Positions 40,055 to 57,243 of a stretch of DNA of 64,000 bases are shown here, one piece after another; position 1 is the first letter of the stretch, and each line of letters opens with the position of its first letter. Location of the stretch: positions 1,178,001 to 1,242,000 of the forward strand of contig NZ_CP041216.1 in assembly GCF_020511155.1 (NCBI RefSeq). The letters are read 5' to 3'. The notes beneath the pieces are model-generated. The model was not told the DNA's origin and ran no database searches. It saw only the letters and a list, made by a program, of their open reading frames with translations. Both the position numbers and the translations under genes were made by a program. The stretch comes from Shewanella glacialimarina. GTDB lineage: Bacteria; Pseudomonadota; Gammaproteobacteria; Enterobacterales; Shewanellaceae.

Positions 40055-42790
40055 GTGTTAGATATAACCAAGAAACTACTCATAGCAAGTTTTGTCATCC
40101 TAAGTACTCTGAACTTGCCTGCACAGGCTATTACTCCATCACCTCAGATGATTGAGCAATTTAAAAAATTGCCACAGTCAGAGCAACAACGAATATCTCA
40201 ACAGTACGGCATAGATCCATCAGTTTTGTCAGGTGGAGTAAGGCAGGATACTAAGGTGACGTCACCTGATGTGGTTGGTCAACGAAACTTTGAGGAAGCA
40301 GTCAATTCACAATTGAAACAAGAAGAAGATTTAGATTTTACTGACGACTCAAATAAAAATGAATTAAAACGCTTCGGTTACAACATGTTTGCAGGTGAAC
40401 CGTCTACCTTTGCGCCTGTTTCCGATGTGCCAGTGCCAAATGAATATATGGTCGGGCCTGGGGACGTTATTAACGTTCAATTATTTGGTAAAGAAAATAA
40501 AGAATATAAATTAACTATCAATCGCGATGGCACAATTCAATTCCCTGAACTTGGGCCTATATCTGTAAATGGACTGAACTTTGCAGCATTACGCCAACAG
40601 TTACAGCAGCAGATTAAAAGCCAAATGATTGGTATTGAATCTAACATCTCCATGGGAGAGTTACGCTCAATTAGAATTTTTGTTGCTGGAGATGCATATA
40701 AGCCTGGTTCATATACAGTATCTAGTTTATCAACAATTACTCAAGCATTGTTTGTTTCTGGTGGCGTGAATGAAATAGGTAGCTTACGTAACGTTCAGGT
40801 TAAGCGTAGCGGTAAATTGATTGGTAAGTTTGACCTATATGATCTGCTATTAAGAGGCGATGCCTCGGGTGATATTAATCTCCGTTCAGGTGACGTGGTA
40901 TTTATTCCTTCTGTTGGTGGATTAGTCACCATTACTGGTGAGGTACGTCGCCCAGCAATATATGAACTTAGTCCAGGTGAAACTATTGCTGATGTCGTTG
41001 ATATGGCAGCTGGCGTGAAAAGTGGCAGTTATTCACAATTGACAAGTGTAGAAAGATTCAATAAAAGTGGTTTAAAAACAATAGTAAATGTTGATTTAAC
41101 ATCTGCAAATGGTCGTCAAGTTAAAGCAAAGGCTGGGGATTACGTTTGGGTTAAAAATTCATCTCCTCAGTTTGAAAATGCCGTCACTATAGTTGGTGCT
41201 GTTGTTCGTCCGGGTAAGTATCAATGGAGCCCAAACACTAAAGTGAGTGACTTATTGCCTTCCATATGGGGTGATCTAGCAGCGACAGCTGATTTAGAGT
41301 ATGCATTAGTCGTAAGGGAGCTCAATAAGTATGGTGATATTGAAGTGCACCAATTCTCACCAGGAAAGGCAATTAATGATAACCACTCGGCTGACAATAT
41401 AAGTTTAACTGCTAGGGATAGAATAATTGTATTTAATTTTAACGATGACACTCTAAATAGATATGAATTAAATAAACTTGTTCAAGACAGAGTTAAAAAA
41501 GTTAATAGCTTAAGGGGCAATAACCTAGTTGGTAATGATGCTTTCCAAAGTGGCTTTAATTTAGTCAGTAATAAAGGCAACTCACAATACAAAGATGAAA
41601 TTGCCGGTATAGTCGTTACTGAACAACAAAATATTGAACAAGATACAGTCAGAAACGAAGTTGAAAAAATGCTTGTTAATCTTTTCGACGACAAAGACTT
41701 AATTGCTTTAAGTAAGTCAATGAGAAGAAGTGAATTACTCTTTCCCGTGATCAGCAAGCTCACTCAACAACGGAAAGTGCGTGAAGGCGTTCAAATTGTT
41801 TCCGTTACAGGTAAAGTACGCCATCCAGGCATTTACCCTCTGTCACAAAATGCTCGAGTTAAAGATTTAATTCTAGCAGGAGGCGGCCTTCAAGAAGGCG
41901 CTTATGTCGAGAGAGCTGAGTTAACAAGAGAGAATAATACCAATGCTCAAGCAGATATCATGCATTCTAATATTAGCATTAGTGGTGTTTTTGATAATGC
42001 AGCCGAAGATAACCTAGTGTTACAAAGCCGGGATATGTTAAATGTTTTAACAACACCTGAATGGCAAGAGTCAAAATTAATTGAAGTGCGTGGCGAAGTT
42101 AAGTTTCCTGGATCTTATAATATTCGTCGTGGTGAAAAGTTATCAGATGTATTAATTAGAGCTGGTGGCTTTACTGATTATGCTTACCCTAGTGCAGCAG
42201 TTTTTGTAAGGCAGTCAATTAGACAGCAAGAACAGATTGAAATTAAAAAGCTAGCAGATCAGTTGCGAAGAGATATTGCCACTAGAGGGGTATCTAAAGA
42301 TGGGACGTTAATTAACTATGCTGATGCACAATTAATGCTTACCGATCTTGAAAATATCAAGGCTGTAGGAAGATTAGTTGTTGATTTGACTGCTATTAAT
42401 GTTGGAATACCTGAAGCAGATATTCAGCTTGAAGAAAGTGACATATTGTACGTACCATCGACTAAGCAAACTGTCGCCGTTATGGGTGAAGTACAGCATC
42501 CTGCTACCCACAGGTTTAAAAATGGATTAACACTTGATAACTACTTAGCTATGTCAGGTGGGTCAAGAGAGCGTGGCGATGCAGACAGAATCTATATCAT
42601 AAAAGCAGATGGTTCTGTGGTATTACCGACAAAGAGTTTATGGTTTAGCTCTGATGAGCTTATACAAGCCGGTGATACTGTAATTGTTCCTCTTAATACT
42701 GAGTATAAAGATAACTTAACCTTATGGACTCAGGTAACTCAGGTTATTTACAACTCTGCAGTGGCTTTGGCTACTATTGCGACACTGTAA
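40055..42790 (+). CDS. Wza-like polysaccharide export protein with six SLBB domains
   Basis: The 911-residue protein starts at a GTG with GGAG 7 bp upstream. A signal peptide (LLIASFVILSTLNLPAQA) leads to a Poly_export domain with YMVGPGDVINVQLFGKENK near residues 131-150. Six SLBB modules follow, each with a core like VTITGEVRRPAIYELSPG: IFVAGDAYKPGSY, VTITGEVRRPAIY, VTIVGAVVRPGKY, VSVTGKVRHPGIY, IEVRGEVKFPGSY and VAVMGEVQHPATH. Wza-type proteins form the outer-membrane channel for surface polysaccharide. No lipobox is present. It precedes the pseudopilin gene by 5 bp, tying polysaccharide export to the secretion operon. It is longer than classical Wza. Confidence 0.88.
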   Translation: MLDITKKLLIASFVILSTLNLPAQAITPSPQMIEQFKKLPQSEQQRISQQYGIDPSVLSGGVRQDTKVTSPDVVGQRNFEEAVNSQLKQEEDLDFTDDSNKNELKRFGYNMFAGEPSTFAPVSDVPVPNEYMVGPGDVINVQLFGKENKEYKLTINRDGTIQFPELGPISVNGLNFAALRQQLQQQIKSQMIGIESNISMGELRSIRIFVAGDAYKPGSYTVSSLSTITQALFVSGGVNEIGSLRNVQVKRSGKLIGKFDLYDLLLRGDASGDINLRSGDVVFIPSVGGLVTITGEVRRPAIYELSPGETIADVVDMAAGVKSGSYSQLTSVERFNKSGLKTIVNVDLTSANGRQVKAKAGDYVWVKNSSPQFENAVTIVGAVVRPGKYQWSPNTKVSDLLPSIWGDLAATADLEYALVVRELNKYGDIEVHQFSPGKAINDNHSADNISLTARDRIIVFNFNDDTLNRYELNKLVQDRVKKVNSLRGNNLVGNDAFQSGFNLVSNKGNSQYKDEIAGIVVTEQQNIEQDTVRNEVEKMLVNLFDDKDLIALSKSMRRSELLFPVISKLTQQRKVREGVQIVSVTGKVRHPGIYPLSQNARVKDLILAGGGLQEGAYVERAELTRENNTNAQADIMHSNISISGVFDNAAEDNLVLQSRDMLNVLTTPEWQESKLIEVRGEVKFPGSYNIRRGEKLSDVLIRAGGFTDYAYPSAAVFVRQSIRQQEQIEIKKLADQLRRDIATRGVSKDGTLINYADAQLMLTDLENIKAVGRLVVDLTAINVGIPEADIQLEESDILYVPSTKQTVAVMGEVQHPATHRFKNGLTLDNYLAMSGGSRERGDADRIYIIKADGSVVLPTKSLWFSSDELIQAGDTVIVPLNTEYKDNLTLWTQVTQVIYNSAVALATIATL

Positions 42791-42795
42791 GCATT

Positions 42796-43206
42796 ATGGA
42801 ATTTGAAATGAAAAAAATACAAAAAGGTTTTACGTTAATTGAACTGTTGATTGTGATTGTCATCTTAGGGTTACTAATGTCACTAGTTGCGCCTACTATG
42901 TTTTCAAAAGTTGAATCAAGTAAGTCAAAAACAGCAATGGTGCAAATGGAGATGATTGCTACCTCTCTTGATACTTATCGTCTTGATATAGGTAGCTACC
43001 CAAAGTCATTAGAAGAGCTAAGAAGCTCAACTCTTCCTAAATGGGATGGCCCATATTTACCTAAAAACGTCCCATTAGACCCATGGAATAATCCTTATAT
43101 TTATTCAGTACCTGGTGAGAATGGCGAGCCCTATACAATGAAATCCTATGGTAAAGACGGACAAGTTGGTGGCGAAGGTGATAATGCGGAAATCGTCTAC
43201 AAATGA
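42796..43206 (+). CDS. Major pseudopilin, GspG-like
   Basis: The start at 42796 gives about 136 residues; an alternative ATG at 42808 (GGA 7 bp upstream) begins MKKIQKGFTLIELL, the usual form. The prepilin peptidase site is KG-FTLIE, with Glu5 present. The C-terminal part is a T2SSG domain: LDIGSYPKSLEELR, DPWNNPYIYSVPG and SYGKDGQVGGEGDNAEI, which carries the calcium-site residues of GspG. It would form the body of the pseudopilus piston. It follows the SLBB gene by 5 bp and overlaps gspE by 4 bp. No prepilin peptidase is encoded here, so a PilD elsewhere must process it. Confidence 0.9.
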   Translation: MEFEMKKIQKGFTLIELLIVIVILGLLMSLVAPTMFSKVESSKSKTAMVQMEMIATSLDTYRLDIGSYPKSLEELRSSTLPKWDGPYLPKNVPLDPWNNPYIYSVPGENGEPYTMKSYGKDGQVGGEGDNAEIVYK

Positions 43207-44873
43207 TTGATGTTAATTCTTTATTACATCAAGAGTTTCATATATCTCAAACAGACTTAGATAAAGCGCTAACCTTTCAAAAGAAGTATGCTGGCAGGCT
43301 AGAGCATATTTTGATAAACATGGGAGCATTATCAGAAGATCTGCTCCCGAGTTTTTACGCAAAAGTACTTGATGTTGATATTTTTGAGGCTGAAAACTTT
43401 CAGAATATAGAGATAGCAATATTAAAAAGCTTCGCTGTTAATAATGAGTTGTCTGCTTTTAATTGGTTTGTGATAGAGAAGCTGGATACAACTGAACAGC
43501 ATTACTTAGTCATCACCAGTGATCCATTTTCTGTTGAAGCCAACCAGTTTCTGAGCCAGAATAACATTCTGGTCAAGGTCAAAGTTGCCTCTGAAGAACA
43601 AATACAGTCAATTAAGGTTTTGTTTGCTAAAGCCGACACTGATGATATTTCTATAGTAGAAGAGCTGTCTGATCTTGAAGAAGATAGATTAAGGGAGTTG
43701 GCTGGTGAAGCGCCAACAGTTAACCTATTAAACTCATTAATTTCTCGTGCGCTAAAAGCTAGGGCATCAGACATGCATCTTGAGCCTATTGGAAATCGCT
43801 ACCGAGTGAGATTTCGAATTGATGGCGTGCTTAAAGAGGCTGACTGGATTGCTCCAAGAATGCGTCTACCTGTTGCTTCTAGACTTAAAATTTTGTCTGG
43901 AATGGATATTGCCGAAAAACGTCGTCCTCAGGATGGTAAAATAGGCATGAAGATATCAAATGAAGACCTTGATATTCGAGTATCTGTTTTACCTTTGCAT
44001 GATGGCGAAAGTATTGTAATGCGCTTTTTAAGGCAAGATGCAATTAGCTACAGTATGGATATGCTTGGGCTTTCTGCCGATATTGAAAAAAACATTCGTG
44101 AAGATATTGCTAAAACCGCAGGCGTGATATTGCTAACAGGCCCGACAGGTTCTGGTAAAACAACAACCTTATACACATTCTTAAATGCCATAAATGATGA
44201 AACAATTAAAATCATCACGTTAGAAGATCCTGTTGAGTATCAGATTGAAGGTATTAATCAGGTACAAATTCAATCTAGTATCGGCTTTGACTTTGCTGCC
44301 GGATTAAGAAGTATTGTCAGGCAAGATCCCGATGTCATTATGCTAGGGGAAATTCGTGACAAAGAAACTGCTCAAGTTGCAATGCAATCTGCTTTAACTG
44401 GGCATTTAGTGTTTTCGACAGTGCACACAAATGACGCTTCAAGTGCCTATACCCGTTTGCTTGACCTAGGTGCTGAAGAGTATTTACTCAATGCCGCCAT
44501 TATTTCGATAATAGCCCAGCGCCTTGTTAGAAAGTTATGCGTACACTGCTGTCAACCAGATGCTAATCAAGACGCTAATATTGTGAAATATAATTTGCAG
44601 CCTCTAGCGGATGCCTATGGTTCTAAAATTCAACTGCATACAGCTGTTGGGTGTGAACATTGTTCAAATACTGGATACCGGGGCCGTATTGGCATTATTG
44701 AGTATCTGCGATGTGATGACGCTATCAAAACATTACCCAAAGATGAAAACTTTCCAACCAATGCAGTTCGTTTAAATCAAGATCGTGGCGGTCGAACACT
44801 TTTACAGGACGGCTTTATAAAGGCTATTGATGGCCAAACGACAATAGAAGAAGTGATTCGAGTAGCAGGATAA
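43203..44873 (+). CDS. Type II secretion ATPase, GspE-like
   Basis: The 556-residue cytoplasmic ATPase powers pseudopilus assembly. An N-terminal N1E-like domain (residues 1-150) precedes the core with PTVNLLNSLISRALKARASD, Walker A GPTGSGKT at 313-320, the Asp box IKIITLEDPVEYQ and Walker B DPDVIMLGEIRD. A tetracysteine zinc site is formed by Cys446/449 and Cys484/487. The length and the zinc site fit GspE and PilB types. The ATG overlaps the gspG-like stop by 4 bp. It is distinct from PilT and PilU at 31-33 kb. Confidence 0.93.
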   Translation: MIDVNSLLHQEFHISQTDLDKALTFQKKYAGRLEHILINMGALSEDLLPSFYAKVLDVDIFEAENFQNIEIAILKSFAVNNELSAFNWFVIEKLDTTEQHYLVITSDPFSVEANQFLSQNNILVKVKVASEEQIQSIKVLFAKADTDDISIVEELSDLEEDRLRELAGEAPTVNLLNSLISRALKARASDMHLEPIGNRYRVRFRIDGVLKEADWIAPRMRLPVASRLKILSGMDIAEKRRPQDGKIGMKISNEDLDIRVSVLPLHDGESIVMRFLRQDAISYSMDMLGLSADIEKNIREDIAKTAGVILLTGPTGSGKTTTLYTFLNAINDETIKIITLEDPVEYQIEGINQVQIQSSIGFDFAAGLRSIVRQDPDVIMLGEIRDKETAQVAMQSALTGHLVFSTVHTNDASSAYTRLLDLGAEEYLLNAAIISIIAQRLVRKLCVHCCQPDANQDANIVKYNLQPLADAYGSKIQLHTAVGCEHCSNTGYRGRIGIIEYLRCDDAIKTLPKDENFPTNAVRLNQDRGGRTLLQDGFIKAIDGQTTIEEVIRVAG

Positions 44874-44875
44874 TT

Positions 44876-46072
44876 ATGGCACTGTTTGAATATAAAGCTT
44901 ATGACAGCAATGGTTCTATAATTCAGAGCGAAGTCACTGCAGAAACGCTTGAGTCTGCAAAACAAAAGCTGCTTATAGAAAAGCTTATTATTGTAAATAT
45001 TAGCGAAAAAATCGCCAAAGATCCCTTCCACTTAGGTTTGTCCCAAAAACTAAGTTTAGATGAGCTTGAGTTTATTACCTCTGAATTGTCACTTCTATTA
45101 AGAAGTGGAGTTAAGATTGATAAAAGCCTACATATTTTAAGTAAAGGTAAAAGTAATACACCTTCAGGGAAATTGTTAACCGCTTTATCACAATCGGTTA
45201 AGCGAGGTGAGTCTCTATCAGAGGCTTTCTCACGCCACCCTGATTTCGACAATCTATATGTCAATCTTGTCAAAATAGGAGAGGCTAGTGGTGAACTCAG
45301 CAAAGTATTTGCAGGATTAGCCCGTGACTTGATTTTCAGGAAAGAATTAAAAAGTAAAATTATTCAATCACTAACTTATCCAAGTGTTATTTTAGTGGTT
45401 TGTATCTTAGCCATTTTATTTGTTTTCAACTTTATCGTACCTCAAATGGGTGGCTTGTTTGATGGTAATGACAACTTACCTTTTTATACACTATTTTTAC
45501 TAGACGCTAGTCGATGGATGCAATCCTACCAGTGGTTTTTAATTGGAGGTGTGCTTACATTTAGTATAGGTATCAAAATAGCATTACAAAAAGGACTGAT
45601 TAACGAACAGTTTGACGAGTTATTAATTAAGCTACCTTTATTCAAATCAGCCGTGCATCAAATAGAGCGCATTAGGTTTAATACCAGTATGTCGCTTATG
45701 TTAGACGCTGGCGTTCAACTTGACACTGCGATAGAACTTGCTGCAGGAACAGTTAAAAACAAATTTTTGAGAAATGGCTTGTTGTCTGCAAAATCAAAAG
45801 TGAAGCGCGGTGTAAGCTTAACTGAGGCGTTAAGTGCTAGCCCTATTTACCCTGACTTTTTCATTTCATTACTTGAGGTGGGTGAAGAAAGTGGACAGCT
45901 TACTCCCGTTTTTGAAGAAATTGCCAACAGAAGTCGTAATGACTTTGGTAGTTGGACGAGTAAAGTCACCAGCTTACTCGAGCCTTTAATGATTTTATTG
46001 ATGGGAGGCATTGTTGGATCTGTCGTTGTGGTGATGTTGCTAAGCATTATGTCGGTTAATGACGGTTTTTAA
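44876..46072 (+). CDS. Type II secretion inner-membrane platform protein, GspF-like
   Basis: The 398-residue protein begins MALFEYKAYDSNGSI, the standard N terminus of GspF/PilC. It carries two T2SSF domains (around 65-190 and 270-390), each followed by membrane spans: IIQSLTYPSVILVVCILAILFVFNFIVPQM and LLEPLMILLMGGIVGSVVVVML. A third span lies near 215. The motif GEASGELSKVF and its repeat GEESGQLTPVF are family signatures. It starts 2 bp after the ATPase gene and binds it at the membrane. Confidence 0.93.
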   Translation: MALFEYKAYDSNGSIIQSEVTAETLESAKQKLLIEKLIIVNISEKIAKDPFHLGLSQKLSLDELEFITSELSLLLRSGVKIDKSLHILSKGKSNTPSGKLLTALSQSVKRGESLSEAFSRHPDFDNLYVNLVKIGEASGELSKVFAGLARDLIFRKELKSKIIQSLTYPSVILVVCILAILFVFNFIVPQMGGLFDGNDNLPFYTLFLLDASRWMQSYQWFLIGGVLTFSIGIKIALQKGLINEQFDELLIKLPLFKSAVHQIERIRFNTSMSLMLDAGVQLDTAIELAAGTVKNKFLRNGLLSAKSKVKRGVSLTEALSASPIYPDFFISLLEVGEESGQLTPVFEEIANRSRNDFGSWTSKVTSLLEPLMILLMGGIVGSVVVVMLLSIMSVNDGF

Positions 46073-46678
46073 ATGAGCTTATTTATTAATTCTCTCAATA
46101 AAAACCAGACAGTTAAAAAAGGTATTGCTGGGGTAACACTGATTGAGTTGCTTGTTGTTATAGTGCTTCTTGGAATAACAATTACATTAGTTGGGCCGTT
46201 TACGTTTAAGCAAATAGAAAGCTCAAAGGCGCGTAATGAGCAGCTTTCTCTCCAACGCTGGCTACAGAAACAGAGCTTCTATGCCTTTACAAGTCAAAGT
46301 AACATAACAATTAAATTTGATGGTAAAGCAATATACAGCGTTGTAGAGCCTCAAACCTCACCGTTAGAACAGCAATTGTTAAATCACAATGCTAACCAGG
46401 ATACAGCATCTCTAGTCGCAAAAAATCAGCTTACAACTGAAACAAATTCTCGTTTTAAAAGTATAGATGACTTCCTGCAATTTGATGACAATCAGCAAGA
46501 CTTAACCAATGCATTGATACCAACGCATACCTTTGATTTCATTTTTTTTGAACCGCAGCAGCTTAATATTAATAATCATGGCTACTTCGATACAGGTATT
46601 TTAACTTATAGGATTAGAGGCGTAATTGTTGAGTTAAATGTATTAGACCTAATTGAAGGTGTCTCTAATGAGTCATAA
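46073..46678 (+). CDS. Minor pseudopilin, GspH-like
   Basis: This is a 201-residue type IV pilin-like protein. The processing site GIAG-VTLIELLVVIVLLG is preceded by a 20-residue basic leader, longer than usual. The globular part is Gln/Asn-rich with no Cys and no clear family domain. It begins directly at the gspF stop codon, and its end overlaps the next ATG. Assignment to the GspH position rests on order and pilin fold. Confidence 0.75.
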   Translation: MSLFINSLNKNQTVKKGIAGVTLIELLVVIVLLGITITLVGPFTFKQIESSKARNEQLSLQRWLQKQSFYAFTSQSNITIKFDGKAIYSVVEPQTSPLEQQLLNHNANQDTASLVAKNQLTTETNSRFKSIDDFLQFDDNQQDLTNALIPTHTFDFIFFEPQQLNINNHGYFDTGILTYRIRGVIVELNVLDLIEGVSNES

Positions 46679-47090
46679 ACAACAAGGTTTCACCCTTATT
46701 GAAGTGTTAATTGCGGCAACAATATTATTTGCCGTTATAGGTGCTGTTAGCCAAACATATCAAGGGGCATTAATTGCTAGCACTAAAGCGACTAGAAGTG
46801 CTGAATTGTTGGGCGTTACGCCATTATTACTCGACACAATAAGGTTTAGGCTTAAATTAGAAAACAAAACTAATACCATTAATGATGAGGGCATTATTAA
46901 TGGTTTTGAGTTTTATTGGACAGCAACCGTTATTGAAAAAGGCTCTCCACCATCAAGATTTAGTCCTGAGGATGGTGAGATAATTAACTTTAACGATAAG
47001 TTTTATATTTGGGAAGTTGAGTTAACCTTGAAAAAACAGGACTTCACCAAATCTTTTGTGTTTAATGAGTTAACCTGGGGTGCTATGTAA
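46668..47090 (+). CDS. Minor pseudopilin, GspI-like
   Basis: A 140-residue pilin-like protein starts at the ATG 46668, which overlaps the previous stop codon; an upstream GTG-type start would duplicate 5 residues. Processing site QQG-FTLIEVLIAATILFAV, Glu5 present. Short globular domain with WTATVIEKG and FYIWEVELTLKK strands as in GspI. Its TAA stop shares a base with the next ATG (TAATG), indicating tight translational coupling. Confidence 0.78.
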   Translation: MSHKQQGFTLIEVLIAATILFAVIGAVSQTYQGALIASTKATRSAELLGVTPLLLDTIRFRLKLENKTNTINDEGIINGFEFYWTATVIEKGSPPSRFSPEDGEIINFNDKFYIWEVELTLKKQDFTKSFVFNELTWGAM

Positions 47091-47785
47091 TGTTCATTCG
47101 ACATAGCAGCGTAAGTCGTGGTTTTACATTAATAGAATTGCTAATAGCAATGCTCGTCATGAGTATGGTTATGTATGTGGGGAGTTTGAGTTTTGCCACT
47201 TTTAGTCAGCGATGGCAAAAAGATGTTGGTAGTTTCAATTATGAAGTTAATAAAGCTAAAAACTTAGTACTTTTACAACAAATGTTGCGTGGCGTTTCAA
47301 ATTATATTGTCAAAAATGATGACGATAAGATGATTTATTTTTTTCAAGGTAACGCTAAATATCTATTGTTTGTCACTAATAATCCTCTTTTTAACTCTGG
47401 AAGTCCCGCACTTGTAAGGTTAAGTGTTAGGGTTCAAGAGGACGGCAAGCAACAGCTTAAATATGAAGAGTCCTCATTTGAGCATAACCCGTTAATCAAC
47501 GCAGCAAAACTGCCTCAGCCTGAATTCAGTAAAGTGTTATTTACCGATGATAATATTAGATTTAATTTTTATGGCTGGGAAAGTCAAAATCATAGAGCAG
47601 CTTTTTTTGAAGGGGAGGAGGAAGTTGCCCCTAAGTGGCTTGCTGAATACTTTTCGGACAAAACAGGAATGTTACCTTATGCAGTTAACATTACTTGGGC
47701 AGAAAACGAGCCAATTATATTTCCATTAGCCAACGATAATGCCTACCAACTATTGTTTAGTCACAACGTAAAAGATAATGGTTAA
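47090..47785 (+). CDS. Minor pseudopilin, GspJ-like
   Basis: The 231-residue pilin-like protein has processing site RG-FTLIELLIAMLVMSMV with Glu5, then a larger globular domain (NLVLLQQMLRGVSNYI, LPYAVNITWAEN) that fits the usual size of GspJ. With the GspI- and GspK-like proteins it should form the pseudopilus tip complex. The start overlaps the preceding stop codon by one base. No signal of transfer or decay was seen. Confidence 0.78.
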   Translation: MFIRHSSVSRGFTLIELLIAMLVMSMVMYVGSLSFATFSQRWQKDVGSFNYEVNKAKNLVLLQQMLRGVSNYIVKNDDDKMIYFFQGNAKYLLFVTNNPLFNSGSPALVRLSVRVQEDGKQQLKYEESSFEHNPLINAAKLPQPEFSKVLFTDDNIRFNFYGWESQNHRAAFFEGEEEVAPKWLAEYFSDKTGMLPYAVNITWAENEPIIFPLANDNAYQLLFSHNVKDNG

Positions 47786-47788
47786 CCT

Positions 47789-48685
47789 ATGCATATTCTA
47801 ATAGCCTCACCTAGCCAGCTAAGGGCTTGCCAATCTTTTCAACAAGGTATCGCTTTGATACAGGTATTATTGCTAAGTGCTATTTTAGCAATGATGGCGC
47901 TACATTTTACCTTATCAAGTCGGCAACAGGTTAACATAGCAACTGATTTACAAAATAAAATAGACGCTGAAGTTCAAATGCGCACGTTAGAAAGTAAGGT
48001 ACTTTTTGCTTTACTCACACTGCCAAGAAGCGAGCTAGAACAAGATGAACAACAAAGTAATGTGATAGGCCGTAACTGGAATTTTTTTGGAAAGCCTTTT
48101 AAAGCCGCCAATAATGCCACTGTAAGTTTTCAAGATATTAATGGTTTGCTGTCTGTTTATGGCACGGCATATAGCAAACCTTTAGAGCGTTTGCTACTAC
48201 AATTTGGTCAGTCATCGCAACAAGCAAAAATTATTCTTTCCAATTTACACCATTGGCAGGGTTTGACCAGAGAGAGTTTTAATCGTGCTGAAAACCAGCA
48301 AGTACGCGGCGATTATCTGGCAAATGTGGCTGAACTCAAATTGATAGCCGGTATTGACGACATTCTTTATGAAAAACTTGCACCTGTAGTAACAACATTG
48401 CAGAATGTGCTGTTTAATCCTATGACAGCACCGCTGCCAGTACTGGAAGTGCTTATGCCTGCTGATATAGCACAAGAGGTTGAGCGGTTACGTCAAGAAG
48501 GGCAGCTAACAAAGCAGCGGTTCACCGAGCTGACCCAAATTGTTGAAGATGACACCATTACATTCGCGCCCGGTCGTCGGCAATTTATAAATATGAACGT
48601 ACTGGTAGGCCATTCAATTGTTACTCGTCGTATGGTTGTCTATATTCGCCCAGAGAATCAGATCCCTTTAGTATGGTTCCAGTAA
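47789..48685 (+). CDS. Minor pseudopilin GspK-like, tip protein without Glu5
   Basis: The 298-residue protein has the processing site QQG-IALIQVLLLSAILAMMA, where position 5 is Gln rather than Glu, the hallmark of GspK. The long alpha-helical insertion (around 110-245) with DINGLLSVYG and VAELKLIAGIDDILYEKL fits the GspK family. It would sit at the pseudopilus tip. It starts 3 bp after the gspJ-like stop. Confidence 0.82.
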   Translation: MHILIASPSQLRACQSFQQGIALIQVLLLSAILAMMALHFTLSSRQQVNIATDLQNKIDAEVQMRTLESKVLFALLTLPRSELEQDEQQSNVIGRNWNFFGKPFKAANNATVSFQDINGLLSVYGTAYSKPLERLLLQFGQSSQQAKIILSNLHHWQGLTRESFNRAENQQVRGDYLANVAELKLIAGIDDILYEKLAPVVTTLQNVLFNPMTAPLPVLEVLMPADIAQEVERLRQEGQLTKQRFTELTQIVEDDTITFAPGRRQFINMNVLVGHSIVTRRMVVYIRPENQIPLVWFQ

Positions 48686-48708
48686 TCGTTAAACTTTAAG
48701 AGCAAAAA

Positions 48709-49935
48709 ATGCGCAATGTTATTGATAACCTTTTAAATAAAATAAAAACAATAGTTTTAAATCAGGTTATATATCTTGATTCAACAGCTTTTCGCTTTCA
48801 CAAAAATGACGTTCGAGCAGATGGGGTTTACTCATTTATTCCGTTAGAAAGTGTTCAAGATGACACGCAAATCCCTAAATCAGTAGTGACTATCTTAAGT
48901 CGCAATTGCTACCATGAGCACGTGCAGTGGTATCCAATTACTAAAAAATCTGATGTGTTGAAGGTGGTTAAATTACAGTCGCAAACTTCGACTTTGCCTG
49001 TTTTATTTATTATCGGCAAAGTATTCAATGGCCAAACTCCGGTCACTTATTATCATCTTAATGATTTATCTACCAAGGTTAACTCCTGGTTAATGGTGCC
49101 GGAAACTAGCCTGCTGTCACAACCATTTGTAGCTGAAACACTAATAAGCTATCAAACCTTAGCGCCTTCCAATACTGTTTTTATAGCAAAAGGGGTGTCT
49201 GGTAGTTCATCCACTTTGAAAGGAGGCGTTATTCAAAGTGATCAACAGTTCGCTATGTCAACGGGTGTTGTTCTAACCAATAGGGTGACATTAGCAACAG
49301 ATGAGCATGCAAAAATATTAAACATGCAGCTGAAAAAGCTCTATAAAATTTCTTTATCGGGGTTATTTAGCAAAGCAAGGTTGTCATCAGCAAGTTTTAC
49401 CACTTTATTTTCAAAACTAGTTTTGCCTACACTTGCTGTTATAACCGTCTATTTAGTGCTATCAGTTCAAATATCCAGTGTGATTGCACAGCACACCAAA
49501 AGTGAATTAAGCGCTGCAACAAAAGAGGCTAATGAAGTCTTAAACCAGTATAATCAAATCAACAATATGATTGCACGGTATAAGCTAGTGGCAGATAAAG
49601 TGCCAGTACGTACCGAGCTACTGGCTGTTTGGCAAGTATTAGCGCCTTTATATCAATCAGGCATGACCATCAGCTCTGTGCGTCAGAATCAACAAAAAAT
49701 CACCTTACAATTCTCAGCGGCGTCAGCCTCTAATTCATTACAATTATTAATACAACAACCAGGTGTAACCAATGCCAGTTTTGTCGGGCCAGTAAATCGC
49801 CAGGGCAACTTTGACACAGCTACCGTTTTATTTGAGCTAGCAACAATTGAAATCGATGAACAGTCTGTTGAAGTGCAGCTAGGTTCTAACGAGTTATCAT
49901 CAAACGAAATATCGTTAACTGCGGAGGAACGTTAA
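48709..49935 (+). CDS. Inner-membrane assembly protein, GspL-like
   Basis: The 408-residue protein has an N-terminal cytoplasmic part (about 1-235), one membrane span (LVLPTLAVITVYLVLSVQI), a periplasmic coiled coil and a small ferredoxin-like domain with SGMTISSVRQNQQKITLQF. This layout (actin-like cytoplasmic part, single span, small periplasmic domain) fits GspL or a PilM-PilN fusion, but similarity to classical GspL is weak. It should couple the ATPase to the periplasmic machinery. AAGAG precedes the ATG. Confidence 0.68.
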   Translation: MRNVIDNLLNKIKTIVLNQVIYLDSTAFRFHKNDVRADGVYSFIPLESVQDDTQIPKSVVTILSRNCYHEHVQWYPITKKSDVLKVVKLQSQTSTLPVLFIIGKVFNGQTPVTYYHLNDLSTKVNSWLMVPETSLLSQPFVAETLISYQTLAPSNTVFIAKGVSGSSSTLKGGVIQSDQQFAMSTGVVLTNRVTLATDEHAKILNMQLKKLYKISLSGLFSKARLSSASFTTLFSKLVLPTLAVITVYLVLSVQISSVIAQHTKSELSAATKEANEVLNQYNQINNMIARYKLVADKVPVRTELLAVWQVLAPLYQSGMTISSVRQNQQKITLQFSAASASNSLQLLIQQPGVTNASFVGPVNRQGNFDTATVLFELATIEIDEQSVEVQLGSNELSSNEISLTAEER

Positions 49936-50501
49936 TGCAGGAGTTAATGAAGTATAAACATTATTTACTGTTGATTGGGTTGCTCATTTTAATCAAATAT
50001 ATTTGGTTACCATTATGGGACTCAAAACAAGACAACTGGCAAAATCAGCAGTATTTACAGTCTAATTTGAATAAGACCCGTGCTTTATTAGCGATAAAAC
50101 AAGACATGAGCCATGCCCACATGGTTATGTCACAGCGTTTAGCCGAGGCTGAGTCGGGTTTAGCATCAACCGATAACCTTATTAGCTATAAGTTAACTAC
50201 GCAGTCTAATTTAGAGAAGTTATTTAAACGATTTGACATAGTCATCAGTAACTCTACATGGCGCGATGGCTTAATTGATGAAGGTGTTCAATCTTTGTTC
50301 TTAGATATACGTTATAGTGGGTCGTTGATCCAGTATCTAAGCTTTTTAGATGACCTACAGCAAGGTGAGCAATATTCAAATATTACTATCGATACCAATC
50401 AGATTAATGTCAGCGGTCAGTCTGCAGATAATCTTGGCTCTATTAATGGGGCGATGTCGTTAAGTTTGGCTGTCAAAATAACTTCAGTGGAGGAGCTGTA
50501 A
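49935..50501 (+). CDS. Inner-membrane assembly protein, GspM/PilO-like
   Basis: The 188-residue protein has one N-terminal span (HYLLLIGLLILIKYIWLPLW), a coiled coil around 35-85, then a ferredoxin-like periplasmic domain (LFLDIRYSGSLIQYLSFLDDLQQ). This is the plan of PilO and GspM, partner of GspL. Its ATG overlaps the gspL-like TAA (TAATG), with GGAGG ahead. Confidence 0.7.
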   Translation: MQELMKYKHYLLLIGLLILIKYIWLPLWDSKQDNWQNQQYLQSNLNKTRALLAIKQDMSHAHMVMSQRLAEAESGLASTDNLISYKLTTQSNLEKLFKRFDIVISNSTWRDGLIDEGVQSLFLDIRYSGSLIQYLSFLDDLQQGEQYSNITIDTNQINVSGQSADNLGSINGAMSLSLAVKITSVEEL

Positions 50502-51175
50502 TGTCAGTACTTTCTTTCGATAATGCAGTTGATTCAAACAGTCATAATAAATTACCAACTATGTTCGCCACTAAGTTAAAAACCGTATTAATGGCATTAG
50601 CGTGCGTAATCACTTTATTACTGGTTGACTACATGTTGTCGCCATCGGCGGAGCAATTTGGCGAGTCAGACTTACTGCCTGAACTTCCGCAATCATTCAA
50701 AGCAAAGGCTTCTGCTACACTGGGCGAGCAGGTTATTGCTCAGTATAATCAGTTTGAAAAAACAGAGGTGGCAGAAGTTGTTGAAGATAAGCAAAACAGC
50801 ACAACTGAACAACATCTCTCAATTGAACAACAAAATAAACAGTCCGGTTTATTACGCCAACTGTATATGGGTAATGTCATTTACCGCCTCAGTGGCATTG
50901 TAAAGTCAACCAATGCCAATAACCAATATAAAGCAGCTCTCAGTTTGACATACCTAGACACAGCAACCGAGCGCTTGGCTATAGAAGTTAATGACAGCAA
51001 TGAAAGCGAACAAAAAGTAGATAAAAAAGACAAACCTTATGTCACTCTGGTTCAAGGTGAAAGGTTAAATAAATATGTGGTTGAGTCCGTCAGTCACAAA
51101 CGTATTGTGTTAAATGATAATGGCCGCAGGCTTTGGTTGGAGTTATTTCTTCAATCAGAAACAAGTGAAAATTGA
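50501..51175 (+). CDS. Inner-membrane clamp protein, GspC/PilP-like
   Basis: The 224-residue protein has a short cytoplasmic start, one span (TVLMALACVITLLLVDYML) and a periplasmic region with a Glu/Gln-rich linker and a C-terminal beta domain (YRLSGIVKSTNANNQYKAAL, VQGERLNKYVVESVSHKRIVL). The latter resembles the homology region of GspC, which contacts the secretin N0 domain. No PDZ domain is visible. It starts by TAATG overlap with GGAGGAG ahead. Its place just before the secretin gene supports the call. Confidence 0.68.
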   Translation: MSVLSFDNAVDSNSHNKLPTMFATKLKTVLMALACVITLLLVDYMLSPSAEQFGESDLLPELPQSFKAKASATLGEQVIAQYNQFEKTEVAEVVEDKQNSTTEQHLSIEQQNKQSGLLRQLYMGNVIYRLSGIVKSTNANNQYKAALSLTYLDTATERLAIEVNDSNESEQKVDKKDKPYVTLVQGERLNKYVVESVSHKRIVLNDNGRRLWLELFLQSETSEN

Positions 51176-51204
51176 TTTAAAGGCCAATTTTTGCAATTAT
51201 CGCC

Positions 51205-51236
51205 AAACCAAACGCGCAAGAGTTTGGTTTCTTTCT
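51205..51236 (+). terminator. Weak hairpin between the gspC-like and secretin genes
   Basis: AAACCAAAC and GTTTGGTTT form a 9-bp stem over 8 bases, followed by CTTTCTTAATT. The interrupted T tract suggests a partial terminator, so the secretin gene may be transcribed at a different level from the rest. Confidence 0.5.
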
Positions 51237-51300
51237 TAATTGGTATCTATTTATTTTTTATAAAGCCATAAAAATTAACTGTTAATAGCAAAATAGACGA

Positions 51301-53421
51301 ATGAAAACTAAAGTGGAAATTTTAAATATGCCAGATCAAACGGCTAAAACAAGCTTCAAAATACAACGACTTTTAGGTCAGCTAAAAGTCGTTATGCTAG
51401 TGTCTAGTAGCATAATGCTTATTAATGGGTGTGCCAATAGTCAACAAGCCGATAATCGGCCCGCTAAAAAGTTAGATTCATCATATCTTGTTAGCACTAA
51501 TGTTGACGGGAAACCTGTCGTCAATAACAATGCCGTGGTTCAAGAGAGTCTTAACGATGAAGATGTCAATACTTCGCTGATAAGAGTGCCATCGTTAGTT
51601 AAAAATAAAGTCGGCTTCAGCAATGATGAAGCAATTGCAGACAGTTTTTCGGCGCAACCGACTATGACTATCGCAGCTGACAACATGCCATTGAATGATT
51701 TTTTGCATTACTCTTTTGGCGAACTGTTGCAAACAAGTTATGTATTAGGCCAAAACCTAGCAGACGATTCAAATTCAGTAACGTTAAATTTACAAGAAAA
51801 AATCAGTCCACAAAAATTGTTTAGTTTAGTTGAGCAATTATTGCTGCAGCGCAACATTGGTATTAAAAGGCAGAATGAGGTTTTATACATACACAAACTC
51901 AGCGCCGAAAGTGGTCAAGCTACCGCTGTGGGCTATGGCCGTACAGTAGACAGCGTGCCAAATGCAATCAATGTTCAGCAAATAGTGCCATTAAGATATT
52001 TGATTAATCCAAACTCACTAAAAACATTAAGAGATATTACCGGCGTCGCGACCGATGCTGATGTTTCTCAAGGCGTTTTATTTTTAACCGGTAGTAAAGA
52101 GCAAGTTATACGCTCTCTTGAATTACTGGCACTACTAGATGCCCCCGGCAGCATTAGCCGAAATATTGGTTTTTTAAAATTAATGTATGTTGATACCGAC
52201 ACCTTTATAAAAGCAATTACTGAAATTTTGCAAAATGAGGGCATTATGGGCGATAGCGGCAGTAGAGATAATCGTATCTCCCTAGTGCCTATTAGCCAAT
52301 TGGGTGCGGTAGCCGTTTTTGCAAGTGAAGCAGACTTTATCAACAGGGTAGAGTTTTGGGCTAAACAAATCGATAAACCAAGTAAAGGTAACGAAAAACA
52401 ATATTTTGTTTATACGCCTAAATTTGCCAGGGCATCTGATCTTGGCCAAAGTGTATCAGCGTTAATCTCAGGCAGAAGCGTGTCAAGCCAGCAGGCTGAA
52501 CAATCTTCTGTAGATAAAGCTGCCGCGATAGAAAATACCGCTGCCAACCAATCAAACATCAGTAGCGCAAGTAACGATGAAATCAATATGGTGGTTGATG
52601 AGCGATCAAATGCATTGATATTTTATACCTCAGGCACAGAATATCAGGCAATACTGCCGTTGGTATCCCGCCTAGATGTTATGCCAAAACAAGTGGTACT
52701 AGAGGTGTCTATTGTTGAGGTGACATTAACTGAAGAATTTAAGTTTGGGGTTGATATGGCATTTAGCTCAGGTAACTTTAATTTAAGTAACGCTTTTGGC
52801 GCTGCTGATATTAGTGGCTCGGTGTTAAAGTGGGCCAGTGGCGGCAACAGTATTGACGCCCAAGCCTTTGAAAGTAATAAATGGGTCAATGTATTATCTA
52901 AGCCGAGCTTACTAGTAAGAGATGGTGTTTCAGCCACAATTCAAGTCGGTACCGACATTCCGGTTGTGGGTAAAACAACCACAGACCCAACCAACGGTAT
53001 CACTAAGTCGGTAGAGTATCGTAAAACCGGTATTGAATTAACGGTAACACCAACCATTAACGCCCAGGGCGTGGTGATAATGACCATAAGTCAAAGTAAC
53101 TCTAATCAAGTCGATGGCGGCACTGATGTAGAAGGTAACCCACAAATATTTGAGCGCAGTATTGATACTGAAGTAGTTGCTGAAAGTGGTCAAACGGTTA
53201 TTTTAGGCGGTTTAATAAGCGAAAACTCGAATGATAATAAATCTGGCTTACCCTGGTTAAGCCAAATCCCCGTTTTTGGTAGCTTATTTGGCACCACAAC
53301 AGAAAGTAAAGTGAAAACTGAGCTAGTAATAATGGTGACCCCAAAAGTGATTCAGCGCAGCGATGAGTGGAATGAAGTGAAAGAGCAGTTTTCAAAGGGA
53401 TTGCAATTCATTGAACTTTAA
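51301..53421 (+). CDS. Secretin, GspD-like, with lipoprotein signal
   Basis: The 706-residue outer-membrane secretin has a basic leader and a lipobox LINGC (Cys44), so it is probably lipid-anchored and may not need a pilotin. N0/N1-type modules lie in about 110-390. The secretin core follows with LEVSIVEVTLTEEFKFGVD, GVSATIQVGTDIPVVG, GIELTVTPTINAQGVV and VILGGLISENSND, closing with GLPWLSQIPVFGSLFGT. A second start at 51328 is possible. It lies 125 bp from the rest of the operon, after a weak hairpin, and is the last secretion gene before the S-layer-like gene. Confidence 0.92.
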   Translation: MKTKVEILNMPDQTAKTSFKIQRLLGQLKVVMLVSSSIMLINGCANSQQADNRPAKKLDSSYLVSTNVDGKPVVNNNAVVQESLNDEDVNTSLIRVPSLVKNKVGFSNDEAIADSFSAQPTMTIAADNMPLNDFLHYSFGELLQTSYVLGQNLADDSNSVTLNLQEKISPQKLFSLVEQLLLQRNIGIKRQNEVLYIHKLSAESGQATAVGYGRTVDSVPNAINVQQIVPLRYLINPNSLKTLRDITGVATDADVSQGVLFLTGSKEQVIRSLELLALLDAPGSISRNIGFLKLMYVDTDTFIKAITEILQNEGIMGDSGSRDNRISLVPISQLGAVAVFASEADFINRVEFWAKQIDKPSKGNEKQYFVYTPKFARASDLGQSVSALISGRSVSSQQAEQSSVDKAAAIENTAANQSNISSASNDEINMVVDERSNALIFYTSGTEYQAILPLVSRLDVMPKQVVLEVSIVEVTLTEEFKFGVDMAFSSGNFNLSNAFGAADISGSVLKWASGGNSIDAQAFESNKWVNVLSKPSLLVRDGVSATIQVGTDIPVVGKTTTDPTNGITKSVEYRKTGIELTVTPTINAQGVVIMTISQSNSNQVDGGTDVEGNPQIFERSIDTEVVAESGQTVILGGLISENSNDNKSGLPWLSQIPVFGSLFGTTTESKVKTELVIMVTPKVIQRSDEWNEVKEQFSKGLQFIEL

Positions 53422-53476
53422 TGTGTTTTAAAGTTGATGTTAAATATATGTTATTATGGTTTTTTTTATGTTGCAG

Positions 53477-53505
53477 TTGTTTGCAATAGCGGTTTCTCTT
53501 ATAAT
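53477..53505 (+). promoter_or_regulatory. Likely promoter of the abundant exported-protein gene
   Basis: TTGTTT (53477-53482) and a perfect TATAAT (53500-53505) are spaced 17 bp. Transcription would start near 53512, leaving a leader of about 345 nt. Confidence 0.5.
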
Positions 53506-53667
53506 CAACGCACTGGTTTTTATAAGGCCTGATTAACGGAATTAACTTTTTAAAAGTTTGATGTTTGCCACAATATTTCAATAAGTTATTAGTGGTAGGT
53601 CGTTTTGTGAGCACATGTTCATTCTGTTATTGACATATGATGGTGAATACATAAAACTATAGTCGGA

Positions 53668-53849
53668 AAGTTAAAGTAATGTGCGCTAGAGGATACTAGT
53701 GCTTCTAGCTTAACTTTACAAAAGCCATTGAGAAATTATAGAATCAACTGAATGGTTTAAATTTAGCTTTCTATCGAAAGTTGTAATATAACGGAACAAA
53801 TAAGTTAATAAATGATTTATTGCTGCTTGTTCCAATTTCATGAAATTGG
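53668..53849 (+). promoter_or_regulatory. Structured 5' leader of the abundant exported-protein gene
   Basis: Several nested inverted repeats are visible. AAGTTAA plus GCTAGA (53669-53690) face TCTAGC plus TTAACTT (53704-53716). GGAACAA (53793-53799) faces TTGTTCC (53827-53833) around the small palindrome AATAAAT-G-ATTTATT. The perfect 18-bp palindrome CCAATTTCATGAAATTGG (53832-53849) ends in the first bases of the ribosome site GGAG. The last two structures share the CC at 53832-53833, so they compete or stack. Such leaders stabilise mRNAs of very abundant envelope proteins; that role is inferred. Confidence 0.55.
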
Positions 53850-53858
53850 AGATTTAAA

Positions 53859-55280
53859 ATGAAAAAGGTATTCAATGCCTCTATACTTGCTGCTGCTGTA
53901 GCACTATCTTTTGGTGCTAACGCTGCTGACGTTTCTGTTGGTACTAAATTAAGTATCACCAACGAAGCTTCTGCTGCTGGTGTGGCTTCAGCTACTTATG
54001 CAAACGACATCACGTTCTATAACCGTCAAGAACTAGCTGCAGGCGACGTTGTTACTCTAACATTCCCAGTTGGTTCAGTTGTAACTAGCGCTACTATTTC
54101 TACAGGTTCAGGTGTTGGTTCTTTTGGTGCTGCAGTAATTGCTGACTCTGGTTCATCTACTAAAAACCTTACTATTAAATTTACTGTTGCTACAGGTAGC
54201 CCAGTATTAAACAACTCAAAAACTGTTGTTTCTCTAGTAGATTTTTTACCTAAAGTTGGTGACGTTGTATACACTGCTGCTGATGGTTTCTCTGGCGCAG
54301 CTAAAGATACAACAGGTACAAATTCAGTTGCTCTAACAACTTCAACTGCTCAAGAAGTAGTTTCAGTTGCAACTAAATTCAACGGTTTTATCAAGCGTGA
54401 TGCTCGTGGAACATATGAAACAACTAAAGGTACTTTAGCTGCTGAAGTTTCAATTTCACGTCCAGCTGCTACTACTGTAGCTGCTGTAGCTACTGAAACT
54501 TTAGTTATCACTGGCAAAAACTTCGACACAGTTACTTCTATCGAAGCTGCAATCTGTGATAACGGTACAACTCCAACTGCAGTTAACACTACTGGTCAGC
54601 CAGTATTAACTTGTGCTACAGGTACTAAAGTACCAGTGACAGTTGCTGCTGCTGCTGCAACTTGTGGTGGCGTAGCATGTGTTTCTCCAGCGAAACCTGA
54701 TACTTTCACAATTAACACAGTTACTCTAACTGATGAATTAGTTGCTGCTGTTTCTCCAGCTACTGGTTTAGCTGGTAAAATTGCTGTTGCAATTACTTCA
54801 GATACAGCAAAAACTTTCCCAGTAGGTTCTGTTGCAGTAACTCGTAATGTTACTTACACGCAAATTGCTCCAGCAGGCGCTAACAAGTCTTATGATTATA
54901 TCAAAGATGCTGACTTCGGTTTATTCAAGTTAGACGCTTCTGTAGTTAACGTTCCTTACCTACCAGTAGGTTATGATTTAACACCTAACGTTGAAATTGC
55001 TAACGCTGGTTCAACTGATGCTGAAATCCAGTTAGAAGCTTTCGACCAAAATGGTGTTGCTTATGGTCCAGTTACTCTTACTACAAAAGCTGGTAAGAAA
55101 GCTGTTACTAAAGTAAGCGAAGGCGATATCGAAACTGCATTCGGCTTAGCTGCTAACTCTAAGAAGAAGTTAAGCGTAACTTTCGTTCTTGACGCAGATG
55201 CTGCTGATATCACATTAGCACCTTACTACCGTCAAAATGAAAGCCGTGTAAACGTAATGTCTGACCAATACAAGAAGTAA
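53859..55280 (+). CDS. Abundant exported surface protein, possibly S-layer (Slr4-like)
   Basis: The 473-residue protein has a Sec signal (core SILAAAVALSFGANA, cleavage before ADVSVG) and a mature part very rich in Ala, Thr, Val and Ser with no Trp, no His and only one Met beyond the start. Four Cys (233, 252, 269, 274) cluster in one segment. Codons are strongly biased to GCT, GTT, ACT, GGT and CGT, as in the most highly expressed genes. It directly follows a dedicated type II operon. Size, composition and setting resemble the Slr4 S-layer proteins of marine gammaproteobacteria. I cannot confirm homology by eye, so the S-layer call is inference; an adhesin or matrix protein is the alternative. 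Confidence 0.6.
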   Translation: MKKVFNASILAAAVALSFGANAADVSVGTKLSITNEASAAGVASATYANDITFYNRQELAAGDVVTLTFPVGSVVTSATISTGSGVGSFGAAVIADSGSSTKNLTIKFTVATGSPVLNNSKTVVSLVDFLPKVGDVVYTAADGFSGAAKDTTGTNSVALTTSTAQEVVSVATKFNGFIKRDARGTYETTKGTLAAEVSISRPAATTVAAVATETLVITGKNFDTVTSIEAAICDNGTTPTAVNTTGQPVLTCATGTKVPVTVAAAAATCGGVACVSPAKPDTFTINTVTLTDELVAAVSPATGLAGKIAVAITSDTAKTFPVGSVAVTRNVTYTQIAPAGANKSYDYIKDADFGLFKLDASVVNVPYLPVGYDLTPNVEIANAGSTDAEIQLEAFDQNGVAYGPVTLTTKAGKKAVTKVSEGDIETAFGLAANSKKKLSVTFVLDADAADITLAPYYRQNESRVNVMSDQYKK

Positions 55281-55309: not shown

Positions 55310-55338
55310 CAAAAACGAGCCTTAGGGCTCGTTTTTTT
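55310..55338 (+). terminator. Terminator after the exported-protein gene
   Basis: AAAAACGAGCC and GGCTCGTTTTT form a strong stem over a very short loop, followed by a T tract. The gene is therefore a separate monocistronic unit. Confidence 0.9.
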
Positions 55339-55813: not shown

Positions 55814-55846
55814 TCATTCGCTAACAACAAAGTGGTATTACACCGT

Positions 55847-57151: not shown

Positions 57152-57243
57152 GGCTATTCTGCTGTTTTAAAAATGATTAACTATACGATGGTGTTGAAAA
57201 TCCCGTAAAATAGCTGCAAATGTGAATGCTTGACTTGGTACTT

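Follow-up and report, generated by a model that had tools for sequence, protein, structure and literature searches.

Does a type II secretion system (T2SS) encoded directly upstream of an exported protein serve that protein alone? The question is raised by a 64,000-nucleotide stretch of Shewanella glacialimarina DNA (NZ_CP041216.1, positions 1,178,001 to 1,242,000), hereafter the window, in which a gspG-to-gspD operon is followed by slr4, a gene for an S-layer protein. Coordinates of genes, domains and hairpins are window positions on the plus strand, unless another contig or locus is named. Based on the analyses described below, this is very probably a Slr4-family S-layer locus with a T2SS devoted to Slr4 export and with a coat held by the polysaccharide of the flanking genes. 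Gene content, family membership, clade-level linkage, a shared C-terminal domain and the polysaccharide context were computed here; from the gene linkage, we infer that the T2SS exports Slr4, and Slr4 alone.

In Pseudoalteromonas tunicata, Slr4 forms a square-sheet S-layer around the cells, which is lost in a deletion mutant (Ali et al. 2020, PMC7821379). The parts of the literature drawn on here also report a T2SS cluster directly upstream of slr4 in P. tunicata, and alike in other species, and propose a dedicated T2SS (PMC7821379; AnnoView PMC11094555); Shewanella is named among the hosts of Slr4 homologues (PMC7821379). The pairing of Slr4 with a T2SS and the idea of dedicated export are therefore already published, and the window locus is a further example. 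As far as the P. tunicata D2 system is described there, the two share the Pfam family, a T2SS operon directly upstream and a marine gammaproteobacterial host, whereas the window sequence is divergent.

The gene next to the operon encodes a Slr4-family protein

The 473-aa product of slr4 (53859-55280) matches PF19526, the Slr4 S-layer family of Pfam, with an E value of 1.3e-20 and 74.4 bits against a cut-off of 25, over profile positions 1-366 of 370. This match bears out the S-layer-like identity suggested in an earlier note on this DNA, which had been made from the sequence alone. The same note had described a highly biased, Trp- and His-free exported protein with its own leader and terminator, and each of these traits was recovered. 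The N-terminus, MKKVFNASILAAAVALSFGANA, reads by eye as a Sec-type signal peptide, and the protein contains no Trp, no His and four Cys. The effective codon number (Nc) of slr4 is 32.1, compared with 43.6-58.0 in 15 neighbouring genes of the window, and this bias is the one pointer to abundance here. A 437-bp gap separates gspD from slr4 and forms the slr4 leader region (53422-53858, from the open reading frame (ORF) coordinates), and an intrinsic-terminator-like stem lies 3′ of the gene (55311-55336). The promoter and terminator scan as a whole was at chance (7 promoter-like matches versus 6.5 expected and 2 terminator-like matches versus 1.6); therefore, only the stem directly after the slr4 stop codon was used. 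The genome encodes one Slr4-like protein, since its two further matches cover just the first 50-75 profile positions, and slr4 is accordingly taken as single-copy.

The AlphaFold2 model of Slr4 (pLDDT 72, pTM 0.55) predicts a row of beta-sandwich domains of Ig-, FN3- or cohesin-like type. The best PDB matches obtained with Foldseek and VIA-align were domains of streptococcal adhesins and pilins, and integrin legs, all with low TM or high rmsd, so the general architecture alone can be stated; most of the VIA-align rows leave the C-terminal domain uncovered. Searching PDB sequences with the Slr4 profile yielded no convincing relative (a single match at E 0.05), and the Pfam scan of the protein gave PF19526 alone, with no SLH domain. 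An earlier I-TASSER threading of Slr4 pointed to RsaA (PMC7821379, as far as drawn on here). We considered an RsaA-like beta-helix and rejected it, given the string of beta-sandwich beads in the model; RsaA was not among the matches listed, which by itself excludes nothing.

Slr4 is linked to one clade of T2SS secretins

Two draws of genomes were searched, one of 394 genomes of the same order and one of 369 genomes taken class-wide, at least four of which belong to that order. Slr4 was found in 17 of the 394 genomes, representing 11 genera, and in the class-wide draw in the window's own genome only. A search with the window secretin was positive at E 1e-30 or better in 43 of the 394 genomes. 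All 16 genomes with a secretin of at least 478 bits have Slr4, and all 17 Slr4 genomes of this draw have a T2SS secretin at the slr4 locus. In the seventeenth, G230, this secretin is more distant (212 bits) and lies approximately 0.9 kb upstream of the Slr4 match.

For a closer comparison, the loci of 39 of the 43 secretin-positive genomes were used together with that of the window's own genome (G077, G037 and G085 were left out), and the top 80 of 570 named loci from a genome collection were added. Secretin similarity places the window's genome in Shewanella, its nearest named relative being S. algidipiscicola, with 73% identity by tblastn. A tree of 119 secretins was built by a quick method with SH-aLRT support only; L076, L102, L116, L099 and L100, which are second copies or pilus loci, and secretin ORFs shorter than 500 aa were left out. 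L102 duplicates L058, and L116 duplicates L069. In this tree, a single clade of 39 rows groups the Slr4-linked secretins, separate from the standard T2SS of the window's own genome, and 38 of the 39 are accompanied by Slr4. The exception, L129, lies on a contig that stops approximately 0.3 kb after gspD. Widespread occurrence of the operon without such a neighbour, which the earlier note had set against its own proposal, is thus not what the clade contains.

The linkage is also kept through rearrangement. In L059, the gene order is G-E-F-H-D-I-J-K-L-M-C, and slr4 is divergent from gspG.

Several variants of the locus were observed. In L058 and L059 (genus g48; the L058 sequence is also that of Aliagarivorans marinus, L102), slr4 lies upstream of the T2SS genes and is divergently oriented. 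Tandem Slr4-like ORFs follow one T2SS in L115 (five), L114 (three) and L068 (three), loci from Pseudidiomarina and G365, and coat variants are a possibility. In G052 (L067, 13491-15037, turned), slr4 is broken in the assembly into two ORFs of 294 and 217 aa.

The T2SS operon and the other secretion systems of the genome

According to the ORF list and Pfam, the operon occupies 42796-53421 in the order G-E-F-H-I-J-K-L-M-C-D and ends directly upstream of slr4. Its core components, all above the Pfam cut-offs, are the major pseudopilin gspG (42796-43206; PF08334, E 2.6e-29; TIGR01710, 135.9 bits, above cut-off), the ATPase gspE (43203-44873; PF00437, E 1.4e-124), the inner-membrane platform gspF (44876-46072; PF00482, E 3.2e-52) and the secretin gspD (51301-53421; PF00263, E 1.8e-45, and PF03958), which the tree also places. 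The minor pseudopilin genes are gspH-like (46073-46678; PF07963; TIGR01708, 32.6 bits, below cut-off), gspI-like (46653-47090; PF07963, E 8.9e-8), gspJ-like (47090-47785; PF07963, E 1.7e-7) and gspK (47789-48685; PF21687, T2SSK_1st, at 26.6 bits barely above its cut-off of 26.2). The N-methyl pseudopilin motif was detected by Pfam in G, H, I and J. The NCBIfam equivalog cut-offs were not reached by GspD (276.9 versus 351.35) or GspE (511.4 versus 630.25).

The Pfam scan gave no match for L, M and C. The L protein (48709-49935) is GspL, an inner-membrane assembly protein, with modest structure scores: the best Foldseek matches of its AlphaFold2 model (pLDDT 73) in the PDB are PilM, PulL and the PulL/EpsL/XcpY periplasmic domains, with E values of 2e-4 to 2.4e-2 and TM over the query of 0.14-0.30. 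The gspM-like gene (49935-50501) has no family match and was named by position; in a PDB sequence search, ATP synthase b subunits came out on top (E 0.0018), followed more weakly by PilO (E 0.087). Compared by hhalign with their counterparts in the ordinary T2SS of the same genome, L and M show no similarity (0.3% and 0.8%, respectively), and C gives a weak match (51%) over residues 103-178 of 304. The short gspC (50501-51175) encodes a membrane segment and a homology-region-like domain; in an alignment of 17 sequences, the protein stops after the homology region, and a PDZ domain would not fit. Other GspC proteins have a PDZ or coiled-coil domain past this region. The T2SS set that had been read from the sequence is confirmed: all ORFs lie at their coordinates, with Pfam support for G, E, F, H to K and D, while L was identified through a model, M by position and C weakly.

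As had also been noted, there is no prepilin peptidase gene within the operon. The sole prepilin peptidase N-terminal domain of the genome (PF06750, A24_N_bact) is at G000:C1:346727-347092, outside the operon, within a 309-aa ORF whose neighbours are pilus-type F, E and G homologues; the Slr4-linked T2SS therefore probably borrows a peptidase encoded with type IV pilus genes. The earlier note had also called for a search for a second, standard gsp C-N operon, and one was found at approximately 116-128 kb of the same contig (G000:C1), in the order C-D-E-F-G-H-I-J-K-L-M-N, with C, I, L, M and N named by position. Four secretins are encoded in the genome, namely that of the Slr4-linked operon, that of the ordinary T2SS and two in loci which, from their neighbours, resemble type IV pilus and MSHA loci.

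MshEN ATPases have been described to bind c-di-GMP through two RLGxx..LxxxLxxQ motifs at the N-terminus (PMC5013675, as far as drawn on here). The N-terminal MshEN-like domain of the window GspE passed the NF053729 model narrowly (39.3 bits versus 38), and c-di-GMP control of the ATPase was considered as a candidate. However, in the N-terminal part of the window protein (43203-43400), motif I lacks RLG, and motif II reads RLE and misses the final Gln; the Gly to Glu change of motif II is present in all Slr4-clade GspE rows where the position is visible. With the binding residues mostly lost in the window protein and its relatives, a c-di-GMP switch in GspE appears unlikely from the sequence.

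A C-terminal domain is shared with other cargoes of related T2SSs

The last part of Slr4 (approximately residues 345-473; 54891-55277) is a domain also found by profile searches in non-Slr4 exported proteins of related T2SS loci. Over residues 361-460 of the model, block-mean pLDDT is 84-94. A profile of the last ~130 residues of 44 Slr4 sequences, the window protein included, was searched against 6170 ORFs of 124 loci. After iteration it converged on 63 ORFs in 53 loci, with no match among an equal number of reversed decoys. The training set accounts for 43 of the 63; among the 20 new ORFs, five come from Slr4 loci, as additional copies or a fragment (L067, L068, L114 and, twice, L115), and the other 15 from 13 loci that lack standard Slr4. 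Some of these 15 are unrelated to Slr4 upstream of the domain.

First-pass matches with E below 1e-3 were proteins of 583 aa (L122), 587 aa (L073), 581 aa (L075), 596 aa (L074), 459-489 aa (L079, L081, L082 and L086), 499 aa (L077) and 539 aa (L078), and a fragment of 425 aa lying where the fetched stretch ends (L128). Later passes added L096 (first-pass E 0.0077), second copies in L079 and L082, and L125. An NCBIfam scan named none of eight cargo proteins from loci without standard Slr4. In profile-profile comparison, Slr4 and the L073/L074/L075/L128 family align only over the C-terminal 119 columns (probability 93%), and Slr4 and the L077/L078 proteins over the last ~150 columns (80%), with a secretin control at 0.1%. 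The L079/L081/L082/L086/L096 family aligns with Slr4 over nearly its full length (97%), so its members are remote Slr4 relatives.

In the secretin tree, all 52 secretins linked to a C-terminal-domain protein sit in one clade of 63 rows, and none is found in the second large clade, of 54 rows; for the remaining 11 rows of the 63-row clade, no C-terminal-domain protein was found, and contig ends account for only some of these. The sequences suggest that dedicated T2SSs form a lineage in which the cargoes have one tail in common, and this tail would be the best candidate for a module of T2SS recognition, surface anchoring or both.

One branch of this lineage carries an additional gene. Each of the four loci of the L073/L074/L075/L128 family has a DsbA/thioredoxin-like gene directly after the cargo gene (L073 188-2919; L074 14088-16707, turned; L075 13780-16357; L128 2-2070, cargo partial). 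In L073 and L128, the cargo gene is placed upstream of gspG, so that the pair precedes the T2SS, and in L074 and L075 the pair lies downstream; four cysteines are present in each of the L074 and L075 cargoes. The Cys-containing exported proteins of 581-596 aa could represent a new family of S-layer proteins that has a disulphide helper of its own.

More distant T2SS loci were also seen: in L083-L085 and L080 (f15, genus g17), very large proteins of 1142-1945 aa, which lack the C-terminal domain, are encoded after the T2SS genes.

Polysaccharide genes flank the locus

On the 5′ side of the operon lies a gene for a Wza-like polysaccharide export protein of 911 aa (40055-42790; Poly_export and several SLBB domains). 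Since this ORF stops 5 bp before gspG, the two are probably co-transcribed. On the 3′ side of slr4 lie genes for a Wzx-like flippase (55832-57151; PF01943, E 8.3e-22), a nitroreductase-family protein (57226-58335; PF00881, E 7.9e-28), which in Slr4 loci is often beside a pyruvyl transferase, and a polysaccharide pyruvyl transferase (58456-59616; PF04230, E 8.1e-31); further 3′, glycosyltransferases and a Wzz-like gene were recognized by eye.

The same context recurs in other genomes. Profiles of four polysaccharide gene types, trained on the window and up to 15 Slr4 loci, detected at least one type in 32 of 38 Slr4 loci (window excluded), in 3 of 13 other C-terminal-domain loci and in none of 67 other T2SS loci. 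Of the 22 Slr4 loci that are named, non-duplicate and outside training, 18 have at least one type. The Wza-like gene is present in 19 and the nitroreductase-family gene in 15 of the 38 other Slr4 loci.

The pyruvyl transferase was found at E 1e-30 or better in 17 of the 394 genomes, that is, in 11 of 17 with Slr4 versus 6 of 377 without (Fisher p 1.8e-13, inflated by kinship). Counted by genus, the figures are 7 of 11 with Slr4 and 4 of 104 without (p 2e-6, likewise inflated by kinship). In all 11 genomes with both, the transferase is on the Slr4 contig, within approximately 12.5 kb in nine and 23 and 55 kb off in the others. Two of the six Slr4-negative genomes with the transferase, G330 and G357, have a sister T2SS, with the transferase on other contigs.

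Association of a pyruvyl transferase gene with S-layer genes is familiar from Gram-positive bacteria, in which the CsaB gene is associated with genes of SLH-domain S-layer proteins. The window locus resembles these systems in having a pyruvyl transferase gene with an S-layer gene. It differs in that Slr4 has no SLH domain and the window transferase falls below the CsaB equivalog cut-off (TIGR03609, 59.3 bits versus 213.1).

A conserved hairpin precedes slr4

The slr4 leader contains a conserved hairpin (53830-53851) that overlaps the ribosome-binding site, with inner stem CCAATTT-CATG-AAATTGG at 53832-53849 and core TTTCATG(A/G)AA. It occurs once in the window genome, the reverse-strand match being the same palindrome. 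The core was present in 38 of 61 leaders examined, 12-25 bases upstream of the chosen start codon. The 23 leaders without it belong mostly to other cargo families, remote Slr4 relatives and secondary copies; the hairpin is also missing from the slr4 leaders of L060, L072 and L127 and of the split L108.

Outward from the core, pairing extends over a mean of 5.8 pairs; when the 3′ halves were exchanged 1000 times, the corresponding figure was 4.9, with 5.74 as the highest value. Across 24 distinct leaders, the pair adjoining the fixed core is always kept (G-C in 14, A-U in eight and U-A in two). For these leaders, the covariation score was 0.329 versus 0.215 when shuffled, and one of 500 shuffles was as high; the numbers of double-change pairs and of pair types were unexceptional (245 and 95 of 500 shuffles, respectively). 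A palindromic DNA site would yield the same pattern, and sequence kinship inflates the covariation signal. The hairpin may act in translation control, in mRNA stability or as an operator.

Explanation of the locus and its alternatives

The devotion of this T2SS to Slr4, with a coat held by flanking-gene polysaccharide, is very likely on several grounds: the linkage in 38 of 39 clade members, its persistence in the rearranged L059, the presence of a separate ordinary T2SS, the single copy of slr4, and the codon bias and terminator of this gene. In such a system, Slr4 would be produced in bulk from its own promoter and leader, would cross the inner membrane by Sec, would fold in the periplasm and would then pass the GspD secretin. 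The pseudopilins would be processed by the peptidase encoded with the type IV pilus genes. At the surface, Slr4 would crystallise over the outer membrane, held by the polysaccharide of the flanking export and assembly genes, and the C-terminal domain would be the strongest candidate for recognition by the T2SS, by the surface anchor or by both. The earlier suggestion that the T2SS serves this one protein is supported by the clade-level linkage and by the one Slr4-like protein of the genome; exclusive export itself is drawn from the gene linkage.

Several observations weigh against this explanation. The M and C components are weakly identified. The window Slr4 is only 14-57% identical to 23 aligned relatives. 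The secretin accompanying Slr4 in G230 (L072) falls outside the Slr4 clade. Tandem Slr4-like ORFs (L115, L114 and L068) speak against a strict one-cargo use, and five sister-clade loci (L073, L074, L075, L122 and L128) have the G-E-F-H-I-J-K-L-M-(C)-D layout and no standard Slr4, but another C-terminal-domain protein. Finally, the published link between Slr4 and the T2SS is likewise genomic, and this T2SS may have further substrates.

It is unlikely that the operon is a second general exporter, with Slr4 as its most conspicuous cargo and with unlinked enzymes or adhesins using it too. T2SS substrates are often unlinked to their exporter, and with five tandem Slr4-type paralogues in L115 and three each in L114 and L068, more than one cargo per system may occur. 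However, Slr4 is tied to the clade in 38 of 39 loci, the genome encodes one Slr4-like protein, and the GspC of the operon is short, stopping after its homology region.

Slr4 could also be a non-crystalline matrix protein bound to exopolysaccharide, with no S-layer, which we consider improbable. The setting in a polysaccharide cluster fits such a role, as does the predicted string of Ig/FN3/cohesin-like sandwiches, with Vibrio cholerae RbmA far down the list of structural matches (Z 6.5). Slr4 has been described as a major biofilm matrix component (PMC7821379; PMC12153261, as far as drawn on here), but the studied member of the family forms an ordered square lattice around cells (PMC7821379).

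That Slr4 leaves by the ordinary C-N T2SS (G000:C1, ~116-128 kb) or another route, the linked T2SS exporting another product of a polysaccharide cluster that could move as a block and the linkage reflecting a co-inherited surface island, is very improbable, because the linkage outlasts rearrangement in L059 and is seen across 11 genera in the draw from the order, and because related T2SSs without Slr4 have another protein with the same C-terminal domain.

Relation to other S-layer systems and implications

The proposed Slr4 exporter has parallels in other Gram-negative S-layers, which are likened here by description, as far as the cited texts were drawn on. The NpdA S-layer of Paracidovorax and Delftia (PMC10765051) likewise has its gene linked to a gsp cluster and consists of a ~52-kDa protein with a signal peptide; it is a separate protein, and its hosts are mainly terrestrial and aquatic (PMC10765051). 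L077 and L078 resemble the NpdA locus in layout. In Aeromonas, export of the VapA/AhsA S-layer needs T2SS-like proteins (PMC3658858, PMC10765051), and a tie between the S-layer and a uniform O-antigen has been suspected (PMC3658858). In P. tunicata, a capsule has been described above the S-layer (PMC7821379). We found no description of the shared C-terminal domain, the pyruvyl-transferase link or the leader hairpin in the passages drawn on from open-licence papers on Slr4, S-layers or T2SSs; supplements lay outside this search, which is no proof of their being unpublished.

Taken together, these observations permit a broader explanation, which we offer tentatively and regard as rather doubtful. 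Slr4 would be one cargo among others in a broad lineage of T2SSs dedicated to S-layers and defined by a portable C-terminal domain of ~130 residues that acts as a common export tag, surface-anchor tag or both. The front part of the cargo would be swappable for unrelated coat domains, and one branch would always have a DsbA-like helper gene adjoining the cargo, as in its four loci. In the Slr4 branch, the flanking genes would make a pyruvylated surface polysaccharide to which the domain docks the coat, and pyruvate-based S-layer anchoring would thereby have a counterpart in Gram-negative bacteria.

The locus touches on two open questions, namely how hundreds of thousands of coat subunits are moved by a Gram-negative cell through one kind of secretin and what a T2SS recognises in a folded cargo. 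With a T2SS lineage whose cargoes would have a common tail and a variable remainder, the recognition signal becomes directly testable by domain swaps, and the pyruvyl-transferase link provides a concrete guess at how Slr4 coats may stay on the cell.

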